Shown: in pieces, positions 19,494 through 38,068 of the stretch
Layout: every line of letters starts with the position of its first letter
Position numbering within the stretch: position 1 is the first letter of the stretch
Assembly (NCBI GenBank): GCA_012719445.1
Contig: JAAYAH010000049.1
Coordinates: 1 to 64,000 of the forward strand
Direction: 5' to 3'
DNA: 64,000 nt
Source of the DNA: Actinomycetales bacterium
Lineage (GTDB): Bacteria > Actinomycetota > Actinomycetes > Actinomycetales > Kineosporiaceae
Made by a program: the position numbers and the translations under genes
Notes under the pieces: generated by a model
What the model was told of the DNA's origin: nothing
Seen by the model: only the letters and a program-made list of their open reading frames with translations
The model's database searches: none

Positions 19494-20185
19494 TCGCCTC
19501 CGAACTGAGACGTGGCATCGTCATCCGGATCGTCCAGATCCTGGTCCAGTTCCTGGTGCTGGGCGCCGTCCTGCTGCTGGCGGCGGGGACGTGGCGCTGG
19601 GGGAACGCCTGGGCGTTCGTCGGGCTGTCCGTCCTCTCCTCCCTCGGCATCGGCGTCTACGTGCTGCCCCGCAACCCGGAGGTCATCGTCGAGCGCGGCA
19701 GGAGGCACGGCGGGACCCGCCGGTTCGACGTGGTCCTCGGCGTCGTGATGACCGTCACCTACCTCGGCGTCCTCGTGGTCGCCGGGCTGGACGCCGGGCG
19801 GTTCGGCTGGACCGATCTCGGCCCGCTCGTCGCGGTCGTCGGCGCGGTGCTGGTCCTGCTGACCTCGGTGCCGATCGCCGGCGCGATGGCGGCCAACCGG
19901 CACCTGGAGACCACGGTGCGGATCCAGGCCGAGCGTGGCCACGAGACGGCGACCGAGGGGCCGTACCGGTTCGTCCGGCACCCGATGTACGCGGCGATGC
20001 TGCTCCAGATGCCGGCGACGGCGCTGCTGCTGGAGTCGGCCTGGGCGCTGGTCCCGGCCGCGGGGTTCGTGGTGGCGATGGTGGTCAGGACCGCGCTGGA
20101 GGACCGGATGCTGCGGAGCGACCTCCCCGGGTACGCCGCCTACGCCCGGACCACCCGGTATCGCCTGGTTCCCCGCGTCTGGTGA
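19490..20185 (+). CDS. Membrane isoprenylcysteine carboxyl methyltransferase (ICMT) family protein
   Basis: This 231-residue membrane protein has four or five helices. The C-terminal ICMT/PEMT signature is present: HETATEGPYRFVRHPMYAAM, then a helix pair and EDRMLRSDLPGYAAYARTTRYRLVPRVW, which form the S-adenosylmethionine pocket. Bacterial members methylate unknown small lipids or act as Mtase-like proteins of uncertain substrate. It is coupled to the TetR gene by GTGA. An 84-base copy of its 3' end recurs at 22462. Confidence 0.88.
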   Translation: MIASELRRGIVIRIVQILVQFLVLGAVLLLAAGTWRWGNAWAFVGLSVLSSLGIGVYVLPRNPEVIVERGRRHGGTRRFDVVLGVVMTVTYLGVLVVAGLDAGRFGWTDLGPLVAVVGAVLVLLTSVPIAGAMAANRHLETTVRIQAERGHETATEGPYRFVRHPMYAAMLLQMPATALLLESAWALVPAAGFVVAMVVRTALEDRMLRSDLPGYAAYARTTRYRLVPRVW

Positions 20186-20235
20186 CCTCGCGTCGGCGTT
20201 CGTCCCCGCCCCGGCCGGTGACGGGCGAGGCGGCC

Positions 20236-22343: not shown

Positions 22344-22461
22344 GTCCCCAGCGTTCAGCGACGACGGGCGGCTCCGGGACGACCTGCTGTCGGAGCCGGG
22401 GTCGGTCGACCGGCGGACGCCCGTGTCAACCGAGGGGGGACAGGTGACCGCAGGCGTGGGG

Positions 22462-22545
22462 GACCGGATGCCGCGGAGCGACCTCCCCGGCCACGTCTAC
22501 CACGCCCGGATCACCCGGTACCGCCTGGTCCCGCACCTCTTGTGA
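22462..22545 (+). pseudogene. Truncated 3' copy of the ICMT-family methyltransferase gene
   Basis: The frame reads DRMPRSDLPGHVYHARI then TRYRLVPHLL and stops at 22545. It aligns with the last 28 residues of the gene at 19490-20185 (EDRMLRSDLPGYAAYART, TRYRLVPRVW). By eye roughly 83% of the bases match across 20102-20189 and 22462-22549. No 5' part of the gene is present upstream; the intervening sequence is the promoter side of the CocE-type gene. This is a decayed partial duplicate in direct orientation, and it abuts the TIR-Maf-PfkB cassette. Confidence 0.75.
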
Positions 22546-22718
22546 CTTCCCTCCGTCCGGTTTCCGGGTTCTCTCGGAATGTGCCAGGAATGTCTTCGAC
22601 ACAGGACTGGAGGACTATCACGGCTGTGTAGTATTCCGACCGCGTGGGGACGCGGAGATCGCCCGGATCCTCGGTGCCGGGAATTTCGTGTGGTTGTGAC
22701 GGTGTTGGGGGGCACTGG

Positions 22719-25577
22719 ATGTCTGACACAAGGATTTTTGTCAGTTATCGGCACGAGGATTCTCGGCACGCGCCGGACCGTATTCGCGACAAGCTCTGGG
22801 AGTCTGGCTACACGCACGTCTTCATGGACACGGAGATCCCGAGGTCGGACCCGTGGGACGAGACCGTGGTCAGCGAACTGCACCAGGCCGAGGTCGTCGT
22901 CGCGGTGATCGGCAGGGACTGGCTGACCTGCCGGGACGACAGCGGACGGCGTCGGATCGACGGCGAGGCCGACTGGGTCCGGCGGGAGCTGCGGGAGGCT
23001 CTCGCCGGTGAGAAGCGGGTCCTTCCCGTCCTCGTCGACGGCGCGCGGATGCCCGAACCCGCCGAGCTCCCGTCGGATCTCGAACGGCTGGCGTTCTGCG
23101 CGGCGGAGAAGGTCCGCCGCAGGAGTTTCGACGACGACGTCAACCGCCTGGTGAGAGCGATCGACGGGAAGAGCCTCCCGGCGACTCTGATCCTGACGTC
23201 GACGTCGCCGCGACGCCGCGCCCTGCTCGAGTCCATCGGCTGGCGAGGTGGCAGGGACTACTTCGCGGTGGGGGCCTCGGTCAGTCCGCCCGGCGTCCCG
23301 AGCTCGCTGACTGTTGCCGGGGCCCGGCATGTCGCCGAGAGCACCGCCGTGCGGAAGGTGGAGGCGATCCGGAAACAGCGGGTCGGTATCCACCCCCCGG
23401 TTCCCGTGGACTTCGTCCCCTCCCACACGATCGTGGTGGGCGTGGACACGCTGGTCTACTGCGAGGGCCCGCGCCCGGGGCGGGGGCAGATCCTCGACAG
23501 GCCCCTGCTCGTCTCCCGGGACACCGCCGGTCCGTTCGAGCTCGCCGAGGCGCGGAGACGGGCCAGGGCGATGCTCGTCGACGAGCGGGGCAGGACGATC
23601 CAGGTCATCACCTCGCTGGCCGCCGGGATCATGAACAGCGGTGACCGGCCGACGATCCGCACGGTGGTCACCGAGGCCCGCCTCCGGGAGTACTCCGACC
23701 GGGAGATCGACGATTACCTCGCGACCGCGGATCCCATCGACAAGGCGGGTGCGTTCGGGATCCAGGACGCCGGGGTGTCGCTGTTCCGCGACATCAGGGG
23801 CAGCTACAGCAACGTCGTCGGTCTTCCTCTGGCCGAGTTCGTCGAACTCCTGGAGGGGGAGTTCGGGGACACCTTCACCATCCCGGAGCGCCGACCACCG
23901 GTGCGCACGGAGGGCGGCACGGCCGCCGACCGGATCCCGTCCGTGGTGTGCGTCGGTGACATCAACTTCGACCTGATCTTCGACGATCTCCCCGAGGGGT
24001 TCTTCGCCGACCTGAAGGCACCGGGAAAGAAGATCACTATTCCGATCACCCGGGCGGTCGGTGGGACCGCCGTCAACTTCGCGAAGGGCGCCCTCAGCGC
24101 CGGCTTCGCCTCCTGCCAGGTTGTGGGGGTGATCGGCAGCGACCCGCTCGGCCAGTTCGTCGAGGAGGAACTGGCCGACCTGGGAATCGAACACGTCGGG
24201 GGGCGGACCTTCGGCCGAGACAGCAGCATCGCGATCGTGCTGAGGGACCGGGCGAGCAAGGACACCTCGCTCACCCTGACCGACGCCCGGCAGGCGTTCT
24301 CGGCGGAGGATCTCGCGGAGGCCCGGCGCCGGATCCAGGTATCCGACGTCATGTACTGCTCGGGCTACTCCCTCACCGACCGGAACCGGCGGAGCAGTGC
24401 CATGGAGCTGCTGCGAACGGCGAAGCACGCGGGCTGCGTCGTGGTGCTCGACGTCGTCGTGGGGATGAGCGAGACGATCCCGCTGGAGGCGCTCACGAGG
24501 GGCTCGGGGGCGAGGGGACCGGGATCCCTGGTGGACGTCCTCGTCGCGGAGCTGCCGGACGTCTTCCGCTGGTTCGACGTCGACGCGTCGGGGTCCACGG
24601 TCGAGAGCGTGTGGCGGGAGCGCGGGCCGGAGCTTGCGGCGAGGCTCCGGGAGTACTTCCCGGTCGTGATCCTCCGCAGCCCGGACTACACCCACGAAGT
24701 GGTGATCACCCCGGACCCCGACCGATCGTTGGAGCTGTCCGAACTCGACTACCGCACCCTGCCGCAGGGCGAGAAGACCGGGTACGGCGACGTCCGCACC
24801 GCGGGCCAGGTGCGGGACTTCCTCTCGCCCCGCATCGTGCTGGCCTCCAGATCACCACAACGTCGCACGTTGCTCGGGCAGATCGTCGCCCCGTCCAAGA
24901 TCGAGGTCGTGGTCAGCGAGTGCCCCGAGGACTCGATCCCGAACGAGCACCCGCGCGACCGGGTGACCAGGCTCGCCAGGGAGAAGGCGGAGTCGGTCTT
25001 CGGCAAGGGTGACTTCGACGACACCATCGAGCTGATCATCGGCGCTGACACCGAGATCTTCCGCGTGGACCCGGCAGGGAACTGGACCCTGGTCGGGCAC
25101 CCCTCGGACGCCGCGGAGGCGCTGGCCGACCTGCGGGAGCTCAACGGGCGCGACCACCATGCCCTCACCGGCGTGGCGGTCATCGGCAGGGCCCGGCGTC
25201 CGGACGCCGTCGTCGCCGCCGACGACGCGGAGGAGTTGGCGGAGGAGTTGAAGGTCGTCGTGAGATGCGTCGAGACCACGGTGACGTTCCGGGCGGTCGA
25301 CGACAGGACGCTGCTGCACTACGCAGCGAGCGGTGAGCCCATCGGCAGAGCGGGTGCCTACGCGATCCAGGGGCTCGGCGGCCTGCTCGTCGAGGGCATC
25401 GAGGGGAGCCACAGCAACGTCGTCGGACTGCCGCTGGAACGGCTCTCGGAGATCCTCGCCGCGGAGTTCGGGAGATCCCTGAGGTGCTTCGACAAGGTGT
25501 CGAACTGGTGCCAGTCGGAGCCGATCAAGGGTCTCCGGCTGCCCACCGAGCCGACCAGGAGGCGGAGATCCCAATGA
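22719..25577 (+). CDS. TIR-Maf-PfkB-Maf fusion protein
   Basis: Four nucleotide-acting domains share this 952-residue chain. Residues 1-148 are a bacterial TIR domain (FVSYRHEDS, FMDTEI, VIGRDWL, DWVRRELREAL with candidate catalytic E90, VLPVLVDGARMP). Residues 156-385 are a Maf nucleotide pyrophosphatase (STSPRRRALL, GVDT at 241-244, DKAGAFGIQD at 341-350, SYSNVVGLP). Residues 407-703 are a PfkB-type kinase (GDINFD, GGTAVNFAKGA, catalytic D691 in GYGD) that lacks most of the helices after the active site. Residues 704-920 are a second Maf (LASRSPQRRTLL, GADTEIF, GRAGAYAIQG, SHSNVVGLP). A G-run 6-7 bases upstream supports the ATG at 22719. It overlaps the next kinase by ATGA. Function is unknown; a stress or defence role is inferred. 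Confidence 0.9.
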   Translation: MSDTRIFVSYRHEDSRHAPDRIRDKLWESGYTHVFMDTEIPRSDPWDETVVSELHQAEVVVAVIGRDWLTCRDDSGRRRIDGEADWVRRELREALAGEKRVLPVLVDGARMPEPAELPSDLERLAFCAAEKVRRRSFDDDVNRLVRAIDGKSLPATLILTSTSPRRRALLESIGWRGGRDYFAVGASVSPPGVPSSLTVAGARHVAESTAVRKVEAIRKQRVGIHPPVPVDFVPSHTIVVGVDTLVYCEGPRPGRGQILDRPLLVSRDTAGPFELAEARRRARAMLVDERGRTIQVITSLAAGIMNSGDRPTIRTVVTEARLREYSDREIDDYLATADPIDKAGAFGIQDAGVSLFRDIRGSYSNVVGLPLAEFVELLEGEFGDTFTIPERRPPVRTEGGTAADRIPSVVCVGDINFDLIFDDLPEGFFADLKAPGKKITIPITRAVGGTAVNFAKGALSAGFASCQVVGVIGSDPLGQFVEEELADLGIEHVGGRTFGRDSSIAIVLRDRASKDTSLTLTDARQAFSAEDLAEARRRIQVSDVMYCSGYSLTDRNRRSSAMELLRTAKHAGCVVVLDVVVGMSETIPLEALTRGSGARGPGSLVDVLVAELPDVFRWFDVDASGSTVESVWRERGPELAARLREYFPVVILRSPDYTHEVVITPDPDRSLELSELDYRTLPQGEKTGYGDVRTAGQVRDFLSPRIVLASRSPQRRTLLGQIVAPSKIEVVVSECPEDSIPNEHPRDRVTRLAREKAESVFGKGDFDDTIELIIGADTEIFRVDPAGNWTLVGHPSDAAEALADLRELNGRDHHALTGVAVIGRARRPDAVVAADDAEELAEELKVVVRCVETTVTFRAVDDRTLLHYAASGEPIGRAGAYAIQGLGGLLVEGIEGSHSNVVGLPLERLSEILAAEFGRSLRCFDKVSNWCQSEPIKGLRLPTEPTRRRRSQ

Positions 25578-26542
25578 CCGGGTACGACCTCGTCGCGCTC
25601 GGCGACGTGAACATGGACCACGTGATCGCGGAGAACCTGCCGTTCCCGTTCGGCGACCTCACGGAGAACGGGCGGATCCACTGGCAGGACGTCCTTGAGG
25701 TCCCCGGCGGCAGCGCCCTCAACCTGTGCGCCGTCGCGGCCGAGGCCGGTCATCGGTGCCTGTTGCTCGGCAGGTGCGGGGACGATGCCGCGGGGACGAG
25801 CATCACCGACTGGCTGCGGGCACGCGGCGTCGACGTCCCCGCGGGATTTCGGGCGATGGGCCAGCCAACCGGGACGTCGCTCATCATGCGCGACAGCAGG
25901 GATGTCCGGCTGCTGGTCAACAGCAGGAAGAACAGCAACCATGCCCTGTCCGTCGAGGACGTCCAGCGATGCGTCGACGAGGTGAGGTCCTGTTCGGTGC
26001 TCTACGTCTCCGGCTACTGCGTCAGTGATCCGTCGACCCCTCGGCACGATGCGGCGCTGCACGCGATGGCGATGGTCGGGACGGCGGGGACGGGCCAGGT
26101 CGTCGTGTTCGACGTCGTCCCGCACCGCATCCACGACACCTTCACCTTCGAGGAGTTCCGTGACCGCACCCGGTATGTCGACATCCTGATCTCCGAGGTC
26201 GCAACGATGCGCCGGTTCCTCGGGCTGGGATCCCCCGAGGAGACCATCACCGAGGAGACGGCCGTGGAGACGTCCCGGCGGCTCACCCGGTACTACCCCC
26301 GTCATGTGCTGCGCCACGGTCCCTCCGGATGCGACCGGGAGATCCTCGTCGACGGGACGCGGGTGGAGCCCGTGCACCGGGCCACCGGGCACGATGTGGC
26401 GCCGGACAAGCGCGGGTACGGTGATCGGCTGGCGCTGGCGGCGCTGAGCGGCTTCTTCGGTGTGCTCCCGGGCCGGGTCCTGGCCGAGCTGTTCCCGGCC
26501 GTCGCGCTGCCCCTCGTCGGGGTCGGCGTCGAGCACCTGTGA
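25574..26542 (+). CDS. PfkB-family carbohydrate/nucleoside kinase of the TIR-Maf cassette
   Basis: The 322-residue kinase carries the PfkB N-terminal motif (LGDVNMDHV), the GG-x-ALN substrate loop (GGSALNLCAVAAEAG, near 45-59) and the anion-hole motif with catalytic D284 in KRGYGD. GYGD replaces the usual GAGD and is also found in the kinase domain of the upstream fusion, so the two are probably paralogues or a matched pair. Unlike the fused copy, it keeps the C-terminal helices. ATG at 25574 overlaps the fusion stop. The substrate is unknown; PfkB enzymes phosphorylate ribose, nucleosides or similar sugars. Confidence 0.85.
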   Translation: MTGYDLVALGDVNMDHVIAENLPFPFGDLTENGRIHWQDVLEVPGGSALNLCAVAAEAGHRCLLLGRCGDDAAGTSITDWLRARGVDVPAGFRAMGQPTGTSLIMRDSRDVRLLVNSRKNSNHALSVEDVQRCVDEVRSCSVLYVSGYCVSDPSTPRHDAALHAMAMVGTAGTGQVVVFDVVPHRIHDTFTFEEFRDRTRYVDILISEVATMRRFLGLGSPEETITEETAVETSRRLTRYYPRHVLRHGPSGCDREILVDGTRVEPVHRATGHDVAPDKRGYGDRLALAALSGFFGVLPGRVLAELFPAVALPLVGVGVEHL

Positions 26543-26563: not shown

Positions 26564-27022
26564 GTGACCGACCCCGGTGACGCCGTCCTCGCCCACTGGA
26601 ACGAGCACCGGCAGCAGCTGCGCCAGAGCGAGGACCAGCGGGCGACCATGACCAACTACGTCCTGGTGATCGCGTCGGCTCTGACCGGTCTCGTCGTCCA
26701 GCAGCGGTTCGAGCCCCGCACGATCCCGCTGTCCCTGTTGGTGACACTCCTCGGGATCTACGGTGCGATCACGGCGGCGAAGTACCACGAACGCGCCGAC
26801 TACCACCTCACCCAGGCCCGTGCCCTGACCAGAGCCCTCGGCGAACTCGGTGATCTTCCGGACACCCGTGCCGTGCTCGAGGAGACCCGGCAGGCCCACT
26901 ACCTGCGGTACCCGCGGCTGCACCGGCTGCGGCTGCACCACCTGTGGACCGGTCTGCACCTGGCCGTCGCCGCCTTCGGCGCCGTGCTCGCCGTCGTCAC
27001 CTGGGTCACGGTCGTGGGCTGA
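26564..27022 (+). CDS. Small three-helix membrane protein of the TIR-Maf cassette
   Basis: This 152-residue protein begins with a soluble amphipathic helix (AVLAHWNEHRQQLRQSEDQRATMTN). Two closely spaced membrane helices follow (about 31-50 and 54-72), then a cytosolic helical segment with Arg/His-rich ends, and a third helix (about 128-150). The layout resembles small membrane effectors (SLATT-like) found in bacterial conflict operons, although I cannot assign it to that family by motif. GTG at 26564 has GGGGAGG upstream and lies 21 bases after the kinase, so it belongs to the same transcript. About 230 bases without a gene follow it. Confidence 0.7.
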   Translation: MTDPGDAVLAHWNEHRQQLRQSEDQRATMTNYVLVIASALTGLVVQQRFEPRTIPLSLLVTLLGIYGAITAAKYHERADYHLTQARALTRALGELGDLPDTRAVLEETRQAHYLRYPRLHRLRLHHLWTGLHLAVAAFGAVLAVVTWVTVVG

Positions 27023-27252: not shown

Positions 27253-29373
27253 ATGGCCGAGTGCTCGACGCGTCTCGTCGTCGTCGTGGCGACAGGGATG
27301 GACGAGTACCAGACCCGGCTGCTCCAGGGTGCTCAGCCCGTGCTCGCCAACGGCGGGATGTCCGTGCTGGCCTACCTCAATGGCCCGCTCGGCCCCGGCC
27401 TGCCGAAGGCCCTGGTCAACCTGCTGTGCCGGACCCGCCCCGCCGGCGTCCTGCTGACCAACGTCGAGACCGACAGCGACCAGCGGGAGATCATCTCCCT
27501 GCTGCGCACCCTCGACATCCCCGGGGTGTTCCTCGGCATCGACTCTCCCGACGCCACCAGCGTGCACGGTGACAACGTCACCGGGATGCGCGCCCTGATG
27601 GCGCACCTGCTCGACGACCACGGGGTGCGCAGGCCCGCCCTGGTCCGCGGCATCCGGCACCAGGCGGACTCGGTGGCGCGGGAGCAGGTGTTCCGGGACG
27701 AGCTCGCGGCGCGGGACATCCCCGTCGACGAGGACCTGGTGATCGACGGCAACTTCTGGAACGACACCGCATACCGGGCCATGTGGGACCTGCTCAAGCG
27801 GCGCAGGGACATGGACGCCGTCGTCGCCCTGAACGACCTCTCCGCGCTCGGCACGCTCGGGGCGCTGGCGGCCGCCGGGCTGCGGGTCCCCGAGGACGTG
27901 CTGGTCACCGGCTTCGACAACGATCAGGTGGCTGCCCTCAACTGGCCGGGCCTGACCTCGGTCGACCAGGACCTCCCGGCCCAGGGGGCGGTCGCGGCAG
28001 CCCAGTTGCTGGCCCAGATGGACGGCGCGCTCCCGGCGCGGGAGATCGTGGTCCCGTCCCACCTGGTGACCAGGGGCTCGACGGCCGACCAGGCGGCCTG
28101 GGCGAGGGGGCAGGTGGACGCGGCAATGGGGATGGCCCGCGCCGCCCAGACCCGGATGGCGGCCCAGGACGCCGTCATCGGGATGAACCGGGCGATGATG
28201 CGCAGCCGGACCATCGCCGACGTCGCGACCGGGCTCGCCGCCTGCCTGGAGTGGGTGGGGATCAAGAGGTGCTTCCTCGCCCTGCACGAGCGGATCCCCG
28301 GTGACGGGGGCGTCGGCTCCGTGGACACCACCCGGTCGCACCTGGTCCTGGACTACCGGGACGGTGTGTCGCAGCCGGTGAACAGCGAGGTCTACCCGTC
28401 GCACCGGCTGCTGCCCCGGGAGCTGCAGGGCGAGCTGGGCAGCGGGGTCCTGGCCATGCAGCCGCTCAAGGCCGGTGACGAGGAGATCGGCTACGTGATG
28501 TTCGAACGGTCGCACGGGCCGGTCACCGTCAGCGAGGTCTTCCACGCCGATCTCAGCCGCACCCTGGAGGCCCTGGTCAGCAACCAGTGGCTGCAGGACC
28601 ACGCGGCCCAGCTGGAGCGGATCGTGGTGCGCAGGACCCAGGAGCTGCGCGCCGAGGTGGAGATGCGGCGACGGACCGAGCAGGAGCTCCAGGCCGAGGT
28701 CGAGGTGCGGCGCCGGGCCGAGGAGGAGCTGCGCCGCTCGGCGATGCAGGACGGTCTCACCCGGATCGCCAACCGGGCGGCGTTCCAGCAGCACCTGGAC
28801 CACCACTGGCAGCGGCAGGCGGAGTCCGGCGACGAGCTGGCCCTGCTCATGGTGGACGTCGACCTGTTCAAGGCCTACAACGACCACTACGGTCACGTCC
28901 TCGGCGACGAGACCCTGCGCACCGTCGCCGACTGCCTGCAGCGGGTCGCGACCGGGCCCGACGACCTGGCCTGCCGCTACGGCGGCGAGGAGTTCGTCCT
29001 GGTCCTGCCCGGCAGCGACAGCGGGGCCGCGCTCGCCGTGGCCACCGCCTTCCGCGAACTGCTCGCCGACGCCGCCATCCCGCACGCGATCTCGGGCATC
29101 TCCGCCACGGTCACCGCGAGCATCGGGGTGGCGACGGTCCGAGCGCGGCTCGACCTCGACCCGGCCGCCCTGGTGAAGGCGGCGGACCGGGCCCTCTACA
29201 CCGCCAAGAGCTCCGGCCGGGACGGCATCGCTCTCGCCGACGACGGGTGGTCGGACGGGGCGGTGGACGGCCGGGGCGAGGTCCCTGCCGCGGTCCGGGT
29301 CATCCCCCAGCCCAGGGCGGCAGCCGACGACGAGACCCCGGCTCCCCTGGAGAGGTCAGCCGCCGAGGGCTGA
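27253..29373 (+). CDS. Diguanylate cyclase with LacI-type ligand-binding domain
   Basis: The 706-residue protein starts with a LacI/periplasmic-binding-protein-like domain (about 7-285: LLQGAQPVLANGG, GVLLTNVETDSD, VHGDNVTGMRALMAHLLDDHG, VTGFDNDQVAALNWPGLTSVDQ). A GAF-like region (about 310-445) and a coiled coil (455-497) follow, then a GGDEF domain with RYGGEEF at 575-581. It has no signal peptide or membrane helix and no helix-turn-helix, so a cytosolic ligand probably controls c-di-GMP synthesis. The inhibitory RxxD site reads GPDD, so product inhibition is likely lost. ATG at 27253 follows GGGGA closely. Its 3' end overlaps the convergent protease gene by 18 bases. Confidence 0.9.
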   Translation: MAECSTRLVVVVATGMDEYQTRLLQGAQPVLANGGMSVLAYLNGPLGPGLPKALVNLLCRTRPAGVLLTNVETDSDQREIISLLRTLDIPGVFLGIDSPDATSVHGDNVTGMRALMAHLLDDHGVRRPALVRGIRHQADSVAREQVFRDELAARDIPVDEDLVIDGNFWNDTAYRAMWDLLKRRRDMDAVVALNDLSALGTLGALAAAGLRVPEDVLVTGFDNDQVAALNWPGLTSVDQDLPAQGAVAAAQLLAQMDGALPAREIVVPSHLVTRGSTADQAAWARGQVDAAMGMARAAQTRMAAQDAVIGMNRAMMRSRTIADVATGLAACLEWVGIKRCFLALHERIPGDGGVGSVDTTRSHLVLDYRDGVSQPVNSEVYPSHRLLPRELQGELGSGVLAMQPLKAGDEEIGYVMFERSHGPVTVSEVFHADLSRTLEALVSNQWLQDHAAQLERIVVRRTQELRAEVEMRRRTEQELQAEVEVRRRAEEELRRSAMQDGLTRIANRAAFQQHLDHHWQRQAESGDELALLMVDVDLFKAYNDHYGHVLGDETLRTVADCLQRVATGPDDLACRYGGEEFVLVLPGSDSGAALAVATAFRELLADAAIPHAISGISATVTASIGVATVRARLDLDPAALVKAADRALYTAKSSGRDGIALADDGWSDGAVDGRGEVPAAVRVIPQPRAAADDETPAPLERSAAEG

Positions 29374-31420: not shown

Positions 31421-31592
31421 GCACCGGTGCGTCCCGAGGGTGTTTAGTAACTGAAAGTAGTCTAGTGTCACCTCTTGGGTTACAGGTTGGCGAGACCCTG
31501 GGAGAGCTGCCGTCGCAGCGTTACCGTGAGCCACGGTCAGATCCGGCGGAGGACGTGTCCCCGCCGCTCCGGTGACCAGGAGGGTGTCGCAC

Positions 31593-33383
31593 ATGGACCA
31601 CCGACCGGCGGAGGAGCACACCGTCGCGGGCAGCGGGAGCACCGGCACGTCCGTGGCCGTGGAGGCGGCCGAGTCCCGGCCCGAGGCGGTCCCGGCCGAG
31701 CTGACAGCCCTCCACGACGCGGTCGAGCGGCTCCGGGCCGAGATCGCGGGGGTGTCGCTGCCGTTCGCCGTCCCCGGGGTCGAGGAGGCCCGGCAGGAAC
31801 GCGAGACCGTGCTCCATGGACTCGACGGCTACGCGCTGCCCCGGCTGCGGGGGATGGACGCCCCGCTGCTCGTGGTCGTGGGCGGGACGACCGGCGCCGG
31901 CAAGTCGACCCTCACCAACTCGCTCATCGGGGTGGCCGCCAGCCCGGCCGGGGTGCTCCGGCCGACCACCCGGTCCCCGGTGCTGGTGCACAACCCCCAG
32001 GACGCCGGGGCGTTCCTGTCCCGCCGGATCCTGCCCGGCCTGATCAGAACCTCCGTGAGCGGGGTGGAGAGCCTCGAGCCGGACGGCGTCCGCCCCGCCG
32101 TCGGCACCTCCTCGCTCCGGCTGCTCCCGCACGAGGCCGTCATCCCCGGAATGGCGATCATCGACTCGCCCGACCTCGACTCCCTCGTCGACGCCAACCG
32201 GAAGCTGGCCCGCCAGCTCTTCGGCGTGGCCGACCTGTGGTTGTTCGTCACCACCGGGACGGACTACGCCGACGCCGTGCCGTGGGAGCTGCTCACCGAG
32301 GCCGTCGACCGCAGGCTGTCGGTCGCCGTCGTCCTCGACCGGATGCGGTCCTCGGAGATGGCCGCCGTCCGCCGGCACTTCGCGACCATGCTCAGGGACC
32401 GCGGGCTCGCCTCGGCGCCGGTGATCACCATCCCGGAGACGACGCTCGTCGACGGGCTGCTGCCGCCCAGCGTCATCGCCCCGCTGCGCGGCTGGCTGAT
32501 CCAACAGGTGAACGACGCCAGGACCCGGGCGGGGCACGTGAGCCGCGCGGTCGAGGGGATGCTCGAGCAGTCGCTGCTGAAGGTGCCGGCCCTGGTCGCC
32601 GCACTGGAGGACCAGGCGGCCGCGGACCGGCGGCTGCGCGCCGACCTGGACGCCGCGTTCCTCCGCGCCCGCGACGAGGTGGTCACCCGGGTCGGTGACG
32701 GGGCGCTGCTCGCCGAGCCGGTGCAGGCGGCATGGCGCCGGATCGCCGAGGCCCCCGAGGCCGACGTCGGCACGGGTCGGCTGCGCCGCGCGGTGAGCGG
32801 GGTGCTCCGCGGCGCGATCGCCAGGGCCGAGACGGCGGTGCAGACCCTGGTCGAGGCCGTCGACGCGCTCGTCCACCGGGAGCTCGGCACCGCCCTGCAC
32901 CGGGTCGCCGACTGCTGGCGGGAGGACCCGGCGACGGAGTCCCTCGGTGACGCGCCGGAGCTCACCCGGATCCCCGACGACCTGTCCCGCCGGGTCTCCG
33001 ACGCCGTGCAGCAGTGGTACGCCGGGGTCCACGAGGGCACGCGGTCCCGGAGCGGTCAGCCGAGGGACGAGAGCGGGATCGACCCGGCGGGGGCAGCGCT
33101 CACCGTCCTCGCCGTCGGCGCGGACGCCTCGTGGATCGGTCCGGTGGCCCGGGCCGTGATCGAGGGCGAGGGGCCCCTGCCCGACCTCCCGCTCCGGGTG
33201 CACACCGCGCGCGAGGATCTCCGACGCCGGCTGGCCGACCTCGTGGTGAGCGAGTACGTGCGGCTGCGGTCGATGCTCGACGACACCGGGCTGTGGGACG
33301 ACCGGGGCCCCGAGCTGCGGGGCGCTGCCGGCGACGTCCACGATGCCCTGACCGCGTACCGGGAGATCGCAGAGGACGACTGA
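31593..33383 (+). CDS. Dynamin-like GTPase domain protein
   Basis: The 596-residue protein contains a GTPase domain: P-loop GGTTGAGKSTL near residue 100, a threonine switch (TTRSPVL), DSPDLDS as the G3 motif, and LDRM as a G4-like motif. A long helical region with several coiled coils follows. No clear membrane helix is seen. Such proteins in actinobacteria often come as pairs with a second YfjP-like GTPase; here it stands alone. ATG at 31593 is chosen because AGGAGG lies 8 bases before it. The gap upstream (31421-31592) is unusually AT-rich and probably holds its promoter. The gene ends at a strong hairpin. Confidence 0.85.
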   Translation: MDHRPAEEHTVAGSGSTGTSVAVEAAESRPEAVPAELTALHDAVERLRAEIAGVSLPFAVPGVEEARQERETVLHGLDGYALPRLRGMDAPLLVVVGGTTGAGKSTLTNSLIGVAASPAGVLRPTTRSPVLVHNPQDAGAFLSRRILPGLIRTSVSGVESLEPDGVRPAVGTSSLRLLPHEAVIPGMAIIDSPDLDSLVDANRKLARQLFGVADLWLFVTTGTDYADAVPWELLTEAVDRRLSVAVVLDRMRSSEMAAVRRHFATMLRDRGLASAPVITIPETTLVDGLLPPSVIAPLRGWLIQQVNDARTRAGHVSRAVEGMLEQSLLKVPALVAALEDQAAADRRLRADLDAAFLRARDEVVTRVGDGALLAEPVQAAWRRIAEAPEADVGTGRLRRAVSGVLRGAIARAETAVQTLVEAVDALVHRELGTALHRVADCWREDPATESLGDAPELTRIPDDLSRRVSDAVQQWYAGVHEGTRSRSGQPRDESGIDPAGAALTVLAVGADASWIGPVARAVIEGEGPLPDLPLRVHTAREDLRRRLADLVVSEYVRLRSMLDDTGLWDDRGPELRGAAGDVHDALTAYREIAEDD

Positions 33384-36743: not shown

Positions 36744-36919
36744 GAGCCTCCTTCGGATCCCCGGCGGACCGCCGGTGAACGGTTGGTTCCCGCCCAGTGA
36801 AGGGGGCGACTCTGGGAGCCGGCTGGGAAGGGGGCGTGGCCGACCTTAGTGGCAGCGGGCTCCCGCACCCGTTCACGTCTCTCGTACCGTTGCCGGGTGT
36901 CGACCATGTCGGATGCCGG

Positions 36920-38068
36920 ATGCTGACCACGTTGGCGGTCGAGAACTACCGGTCCCTGCGCCGGCTGGTGATCCCGTTGCGCCGGCTCACCGTGATCACC
37001 GGGGCCAACGGCAGCGGCAAGTCCAACGCGTACCGGGCGCTGCGGCTGCTGGCCGAGTGCGCCCGCAACGGCGCCGTCGCGGCCCTCGCCCGCGAGGGAG
37101 GGCTGGCGTCGACGCTGTGGGCCGGTCCGCCCCTCGGCCGGGGCTCGGCCGGTGCCCGCCGGGCACCGGTCGGCCTGCGCCTCGGCTTCGCCGGGACCGA
37201 CGTCGGGTACGCCGTCGACCTCGGCCTGCCGGTGTCACGGCAGACGGCGTTCGACCTCGACCCGGAGATCAAGCGCGAGTGCGTGTGGGCCGGGCCGATG
37301 CTGCGCCCCGCGACGCTGCTGGCCGATCGCCGCAACGGCGCGGTGCGGATCCGGGACGCCTCCGGCGGCTGGACCGACGCCGGGTACGGGCTGCCTGCGG
37401 TGGACAGCATGCTCAGCGAGCTCGCCGACCCACTGCGGGCTCCCGAGGTGATGGCGCTCCGCGAGCGGATCAGGTCGTGGCGGTTCTACGACCACTTCCG
37501 CACCGACGCCGGAGCCCCGGCCCGCACCGCCTGGGTGGGGACCTTCACCCCGGTCCTCGGCCACGACGGCGCCGACCTGGCGGCGGCCCTGCAGACCGTC
37601 CGTGAGGCCGGTGATCCCCTGCTGCTGGACGAGGCCGTCGAGGCCGCCTTCCCCGGCAGCACCCTGGAGGTCGTCGCCCAGGGCGGCCGGTTCGACCTCG
37701 CGTTCCACCAGCGCGGGCTGCTCCGCCCGCTGAGCGTGGCGGAGCTGTCCGACGGGACCCTGCGCTACCTGCTGTGGATCGCCGCGCTGCTGAGCCCGCG
37801 ACCGCCGGAGCTGCTGGTGCTCAACGAGCCGGAGACCAGCCTGCACCCGGAGCTGCTGCCCGCCCTGGCCCGGTTGGTCGCCGACGCGTCAGGGCGCACC
37901 CAGGTCCTGGTGGTGTCCCACTCCGCTGCTCTGGTCGAGGCCGTGGTCACCGGGGTCTCCGCCGGCGAGCACTGCCAGGTCCTGGAGTTGGTCAAGGAGG
38001 CGGGGCAGACCCTGGTCGCGGGCCAGGAACGGTTCGACCAGCCGCCGTGGCAGTGGCCGGCCAGGTGA
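36920..38068 (+). CDS. RecF/ABC-type AAA ATPase (OLD-like, no nuclease domain)
   Basis: The 382-residue protein has the RecF-type layout. MLTTLAVENYRSLRRLVIPLRRLTVITGANGSGKSN carries Walker A (GANGSGKS). A mid-region and a signature-like LSDGTLRYL follow, then Walker B LLVLNEPETSLHPELL, and the switch histidine in VVSHSAALVEAV. There is no TOPRIM domain, so it is not a complete OLD nuclease. Relatives are common orphan ATPases of unknown task, in DNA repair or toxin-like roles. The ATG at 36920 is preferred because the ENYRSL motif follows it closely. Confidence 0.85.
   Translation: MLTTLAVENYRSLRRLVIPLRRLTVITGANGSGKSNAYRALRLLAECARNGAVAALAREGGLASTLWAGPPLGRGSAGARRAPVGLRLGFAGTDVGYAVDLGLPVSRQTAFDLDPEIKRECVWAGPMLRPATLLADRRNGAVRIRDASGGWTDAGYGLPAVDSMLSELADPLRAPEVMALRERIRSWRFYDHFRTDAGAPARTAWVGTFTPVLGHDGADLAAALQTVREAGDPLLLDEAVEAAFPGSTLEVVAQGGRFDLAFHQRGLLRPLSVAELSDGTLRYLLWIAALLSPRPPELLVLNEPETSLHPELLPALARLVADASGRTQVLVVSHSAALVEAVVTGVSAGEHCQVLELVKEAGQTLVAGQERFDQPPWQWPAR

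Follow-up and report, generated by a model that had tools for sequence, protein, structure and literature searches.

A single open reading frame from a high-GC Actinomycetales bacterium of the family Kineosporiaceae encodes a TIR domain, a Maf domain, a PfkB domain and a second Maf domain. This fusion heads a three-gene cassette on the forward strand of the window, by which we mean the whole stretch of 64,000 nucleotides that was analysed (contig JAAYAH010000049.1). On balance the evidence leans towards a horizontally acquired conflict cassette, probably anti-phage and abortive, in which the Maf-PfkB-Maf module gates a TIR NADase. Infection would then probably trigger the suicide of the cell, by way of a nucleotide sensor of a previously undescribed kind. 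The observed features of the cassette are its domain content, its operon layout, the states of key residues, its lower GC content and the recurrent pairing of its membrane protein with TIR-type genes.

The fusion gene (22719..25577, + strand) encodes 952 amino acids without an internal stop, it starts with ATG and has a G-rich, Shine-Dalgarno-like run upstream. The first-pass annotation had claimed four domains in this one polypeptide, and Pfam bears this out. TIR_2 (PF13676) matches with an E-value of 2.1e-15 (57.7 bits, cut-off 28), Maf with 7.8e-83 (277 bits, cut-off 27) and PfkB with 8e-12 (45.5 bits, cut-off 25.8). The Maf match is split over two stretches, which pass the cut-off individually with 162 and 122 bits, so that all four domains exceed their thresholds. 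GC3 is 0.85-0.93 in each of the four domain segments, which shows that the gene is coding from end to end and is no frame accident. The only other Maf of the genome is the housekeeping Maf, a separate gene on a different contig, the Mafs of the fusion are therefore not the housekeeping copies of the cell. The first-pass annotation also held that all hallmark motifs are intact, which is wrong: Maf1, Maf2 and PfkB are all altered, and the TIR glutamate E90 is intact.

The TIR domain (amino acids 6-127, 22734..23099, + strand) is the single TIR_2 match in the whole genome. The solved structures nearest to it are those of SARM1. E90 (codon 22986-22988), in the motif DWVRRE, aligns with the glutamate of SARM1 DWVHKE, the catalytic residue is thus kept and the domain is predicted from its sequence to be an NADase. 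The fusion also matches the DUF4062 model (13.5 bits, cut-off 24.7), and its TIR part matches Thoeris type III ThcB4 (5.8e-7, 28.7 bits, cut-off 220), in both cases below threshold. PADLOC gives weak TIR matches only (0.009 and 0.02), and this counts against a conflict cassette.

The Maf signature is S10-R13-E33-K52-D70-K82, and members of the YhdE subfamily carry R12-T71-Q153 (Tchigvintsev et al., PMC3899018). Maf substrates include dTTP, UTP, 5-methyl-UTP and pseudo-UTP, and Maf folds are related to those of ITP pyrophosphatases (PMC3899018). An alanine mutant of K82 is inactive and one of E33 has low activity (PMC3899018). In YhdE numbering, Maf1 (23187..23855, + strand) retains S10, R12, R13, D70, T71 and Q153, it keeps the catalytic aspartate (Asp243) and the R-T-Q triad of the subfamily. 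Its S-R-E-K-D-K signature is incomplete, with no acidic residue in place of the metal-binding E33 and with arginine for K82. K52 is probably kept in Maf1, the MAFFT placement of this residue is ambiguous and our own reading puts it in VRKVEA. Maf2 (24831..25460, + strand) has five of the six signature residues (S10, R13, E33, K52 and D70), with Asp777 kept and histidine for the triphosphate lysine K82. Its subfamily triad is Q-T-Q, with glutamine for R12, so that Thr71 and Gln153 are present in both domains.

The PfkB domain of the fusion (amino acids 408-692, 23940..24794, + strand) has a PfkB/ribokinase fold. In a structure model of amino acids 150-705 (mean pLDDT 74, with the PfkB part mostly above the Maf1 part) it matches ribokinase and adenosine kinase with Z of about 25. 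The modelled domain breaks off at about position 270 of the E. coli ribokinase, the last 40 or so C-terminal residues are therefore missing. The NxxE motif is lost, and GYGD (amino acids 688-691) stands in place of GAGD. The second gene of the cassette (25574..26542, + strand) encodes another PfkB-family protein, which has the same loss of NxxE, the same GYGD (GAGD in ordinary relatives) and one insertion in common with the fused domain. The two cassette PfkBs are mutual best matches in the sampled genomes. A search with the second PfkB in 396 genomes of the phylum found just ordinary sugar kinases outside the window, and alignment of the PfkB motif against viral contigs found nothing.

Both genes downstream of the fusion (25574-26542 and 26564-27022) had been overlooked in the first-pass annotation. 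The fusion and the second PfkB gene overlap in ATGA, where the stop codon of the one shares bases with the start codon (ATG) of the other, a gap of 21 nucleotides precedes the membrane-protein gene, and each of the three starts is preceded by a purine-rich, Shine-Dalgarno-like run. A search for a sigma-70-type promoter and for a terminator consensus came back empty, a result of little weight here. The GC content of the three genes is 0.69-0.70 against 0.73-0.75 in most neighbours, and the cassette appears to be compositionally foreign and imported by horizontal transfer. A search for an empty site in family relatives failed, as synteny is not preserved. The neighbours of the cassette do not include a clear defence island, which counts against the conflict-cassette reading.

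The third gene (26564..27022, + strand) encodes a small membrane protein of 152 amino acids, it starts with GTG after GGAGGGGAGG. The protein has about three transmembrane segments, with hydrophobic stretches near residues 27-47, 53-75 and 126-150. AlphaFold predicts four helices, two of them longer than 40 residues. A Foldseek search with this protein gave no significant match and no solved relative. SLATT_4 matches it below the cut-off (15.3 bits against 55, E-value 0.014), as does SLATT_3 one of its relatives (14.6 against 45), and we dropped SLATT as a firm name because of these sub-threshold scores. The 286 other genomes sampled from the host's order all lack the gene, and one of 197 other genomes of the class has a relative at 61% identity. 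The motif YHL[ST]QARALT has 16 matches in 84,980 genomes, of which 14 are relatives of the membrane protein, nearly all from Streptomyces or close to it.

Relatives of the membrane protein adjoin genes for TIR-type enzymes. A divergent DUF4062 gene lies next to the membrane gene in 15 of 15 loci (14 genome loci and a Streptomyces plasmid), with the DUF4062 identity checked by Pfam in five of these, and the 15 are counted once, as copies of one cassette. DUF4062 is a TIR-like NADase family of abortive phage defence, named Swarozyc (2026 preprint, PMC13174449). The main text of that paper does not mention transmembrane partners (PMC13174449). In locus L043 the membrane gene lies between the gene for an EAD1-TIR protein and a gene for a TIR protein. 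As the 15 Streptomyces-group loci are one repeated cassette, the independent partnerships with TIR-type genes number three: DUF4062, L043 and the window. A match in Bradyrhizobium (L042) was not counted, it is weak and shorter and its annotated stretch has no TIR neighbour.

Two side observations concern these loci. The divergent pair of a DUF4062 gene and a gene for a small protein with about three transmembrane segments (L041, 8792-10453, and L044-L059 except L047 and L049) covers 15 Streptomyces-group loci, one of them plasmid-borne, and is possibly an undescribed two-gene form. In L043 (9187-11968) the EAD1-TIR protein, the membrane protein and the separate TIR gene form one run, the middle part of the EAD1-TIR protein is nucleotide cyclase-like by eye and has no Pfam match.

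We found no relative of the fusion in about 1,080 distinct sampled genomes, nor in phage and plasmid collections. The sample covers the family (12 others), the class (395), a Streptomyces-like family (395), the order (287) and one further genus (8). All that the searches returned were stand-alone Mafs of the housekeeping kind or a TIR protein with no relation to the fusion (L010), and no housekeeping homologue with the layout of the fusion was found in these genomes. PHROGs gave no match. Scans of genome collections and viral contigs used six arbitrary exact peptides and are weak negatives. The fusion is rare, with one instance seen, and we do not claim that it is unique. The first-pass annotation knew of no described TIR-Maf-PfkB-Maf system, and the open-licence papers that we searched agree with it, they contain no such description and no system in which Maf or PfkB is combined with TIR or with defence. 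A pfkB gene in PMC11676413 was rejected as a precedent, it is part of an unrelated kinase-kinase-phosphatase system.

Several observations speak for reading the cassette as a TIR conflict system. The TIR match is above its cut-off, SARM1 is nearest in the PDB and the catalytic glutamate is kept. The best clue is the recurrence of the membrane gene beside DUF4062 and TIR genes. The operon-like spacing, the low GC content and the sparse distribution of the membrane gene point the same way. In the first-pass annotation the Maf and PfkB activities were suggested to detect or process a (modified) nucleotide and to gate the TIR domain, as in an immune or stress response. This suggestion fits the evidence and has independent backing in the recurrent DUF4062/TIR partner and the foreign composition. 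For the Maf and PfkB part, sensing or binding is favoured over ordinary catalysis because the Maf1 and PfkB sites are degenerate. We put forward, tentatively, a new kind of immune switch: Maf and PfkB folds of housekeeping origin, weakened or disabled as catalysts, would take a pyrimidine or modified nucleotide as the sign of infection and directly gate the TIR NADase of the same chain.

In this mechanism a SARM1-like TIR executioner would be kept inactive by the attached Maf-PfkB-Maf module. This module, aided by the second PfkB, would bind a nucleotide of pyrimidine or modified type that shifts in level on infection, and binding would release the TIR domain or lead to its assembly. The freed TIR domain would destroy NAD+ or produce an ADP-ribose-type signal, and Maf2 may hydrolyse the ligand and so reset the switch. 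The membrane protein may be a membrane-acting partner of the TIR enzyme, as a second effector or an anchor. Sensing of such a nucleotide would be the most likely role of the module, and a pyrimidine type is proposed because YhdE-type Mafs act on dTTP and UTP and on the 5-methyl or pseudo forms of these.

The proposed nucleotide switch has precedents in Kongming (dITP) and Clover (dTTP). In Kongming, an NADase becomes active when KomB binds dITP. KomB is of the HAM1/ITPase type, and the system consists of separate genes with a deaminase and a SIR2-type NADase. The parallel proposed here is close in logic, with an NADase effector switched on by a partner that binds a noncanonical nucleotide. The cassette differs in having a TIR domain, two pyrimidine-type Mafs and a PfkB in one chain, with a membrane protein in addition, and deaminase, HAM1 and SIR2 are all unmatched in its three proteins. 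In Clover (CloA/CloB), dTTP triggers defence and the effector is an HD dGTPase. A pyrimidine nucleotide as infection cue is what we propose for the cassette also, whereas Clover has no TIR, Maf or PfkB. Swarozyc resembles the fusion in joining a TIR-type NADase to a C-terminal auxiliary part, and the Streptomyces-group DUF4062 genes share the membrane-protein family of the cassette. Swarozyc as described is triggered by phage portal protein (PMC13174449), and the fusion differs from it in being TIR_2, with DUF4062 sub-threshold and Maf-PfkB-Maf as the auxiliary part. Compared with the Maf/YhdE and PfkB/ribokinase families, the fusion has the same folds and most of the ligand-side residues, it differs in its changed key catalytic residues and its attached TIR domain.

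Thoeris is similar to the cassette in being an operon of a TIR enzyme and a partner protein, and a Thoeris-like variant, although unlikely, is the alternative that fares best. Here the TIR domain would make an ADP-ribose-derived messenger that opens the membrane protein, and Maf and PfkB would process or limit the messenger. The presence of TIR and a small membrane protein in one operon, the sub-threshold ThcB4 match and the recurrence of the membrane protein with TIR-type enzymes would fit this. Against it, SLOG, macro and other known ADPR receptor domains are absent from the three proteins, and the TIR domain is SARM1-like, SARM1 being an enzyme that depletes NAD. NAD+ is also what those DUF4062 relatives deplete that have been tested (PMC13174449). 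PADLOC matches ThsB at just 0.021, there is no ThsA-type effector (SIR2-SLOG or TM-macro) in the operon, and without such a receptor we rejected Thoeris membership. The defining components of Kongming, Thoeris and Swarozyc are unmatched, and the cassette is a member of none of them.

It is improbable that the cassette acts through active Maf and PfkB enzymes which, on infection, deplete or change the dTTP/UTP pool, with the TIR domain draining NAD+ at the same time. Maf2 keeps most of its catalytic signature, and defence by dNTP depletion is already known (PMC12265719). This is opposed by the absence of the metal-binding glutamate from Maf1, the histidine of Maf2 at K82, whose alanine mutant is inactive (PMC3899018), and the state of PfkB, which is devoid of NxxE and truncated at its C-terminus. 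Maf and PfkB are also metabolic families, and the fusion could serve the ordinary salvage or house-cleaning of modified nucleotides, with TIR as a scaffold only. Scaffold TIRs exist. We rejected this plain role as very improbable: the host already has its separate Maf, the fusion is missing from the 12 family relatives and the rest of the genome sample, the GC content is low, E90 is intact and the membrane partner recurs with TIR-type genes. A frame joined by the assembly or a decaying gene would suit the finding of just one instance and is highly improbable given the even GC and GC3 over all domains, 952 amino acids without stops, the tidy operon spacing, an assembly 99.3% complete and a contig of 79.5 kb.

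Nucleotide pools were shown to be direct infection cues just recently, with dITP in Kongming and dTTP in Clover. If the proposed gating is true, the fusion extends this principle to TIR, which is among the most widespread immune domains. Ligand, switch and executioner would then be open to joint study in a one-protein system. The membrane protein in turn reveals the DUF4062 and membrane-protein pair of Streptomyces-group bacteria, of which we have met no description.

The surroundings of the cassette have some further features. A direct repeat of 93 nucleotides (20097-20189 and 22457-22549, 83% identical) places a second copy of the 3'-terminal part of an isoprenylcysteine-methyltransferase-like gene just upstream of the cassette, as a remnant of about 30 codons. 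It may be the trace of an earlier insertion or duplication. Right after the cassette (27253-29373) a LacI-type sugar-binding domain is fused to GGDEF, and a dynamin-like GTPase gene follows at 31572-33383, both with host-like GC. An AAA_21 ATPase (36779-38065), which Pfam describes as a putative AbiEii toxin, lies about 10 kb from the cassette.
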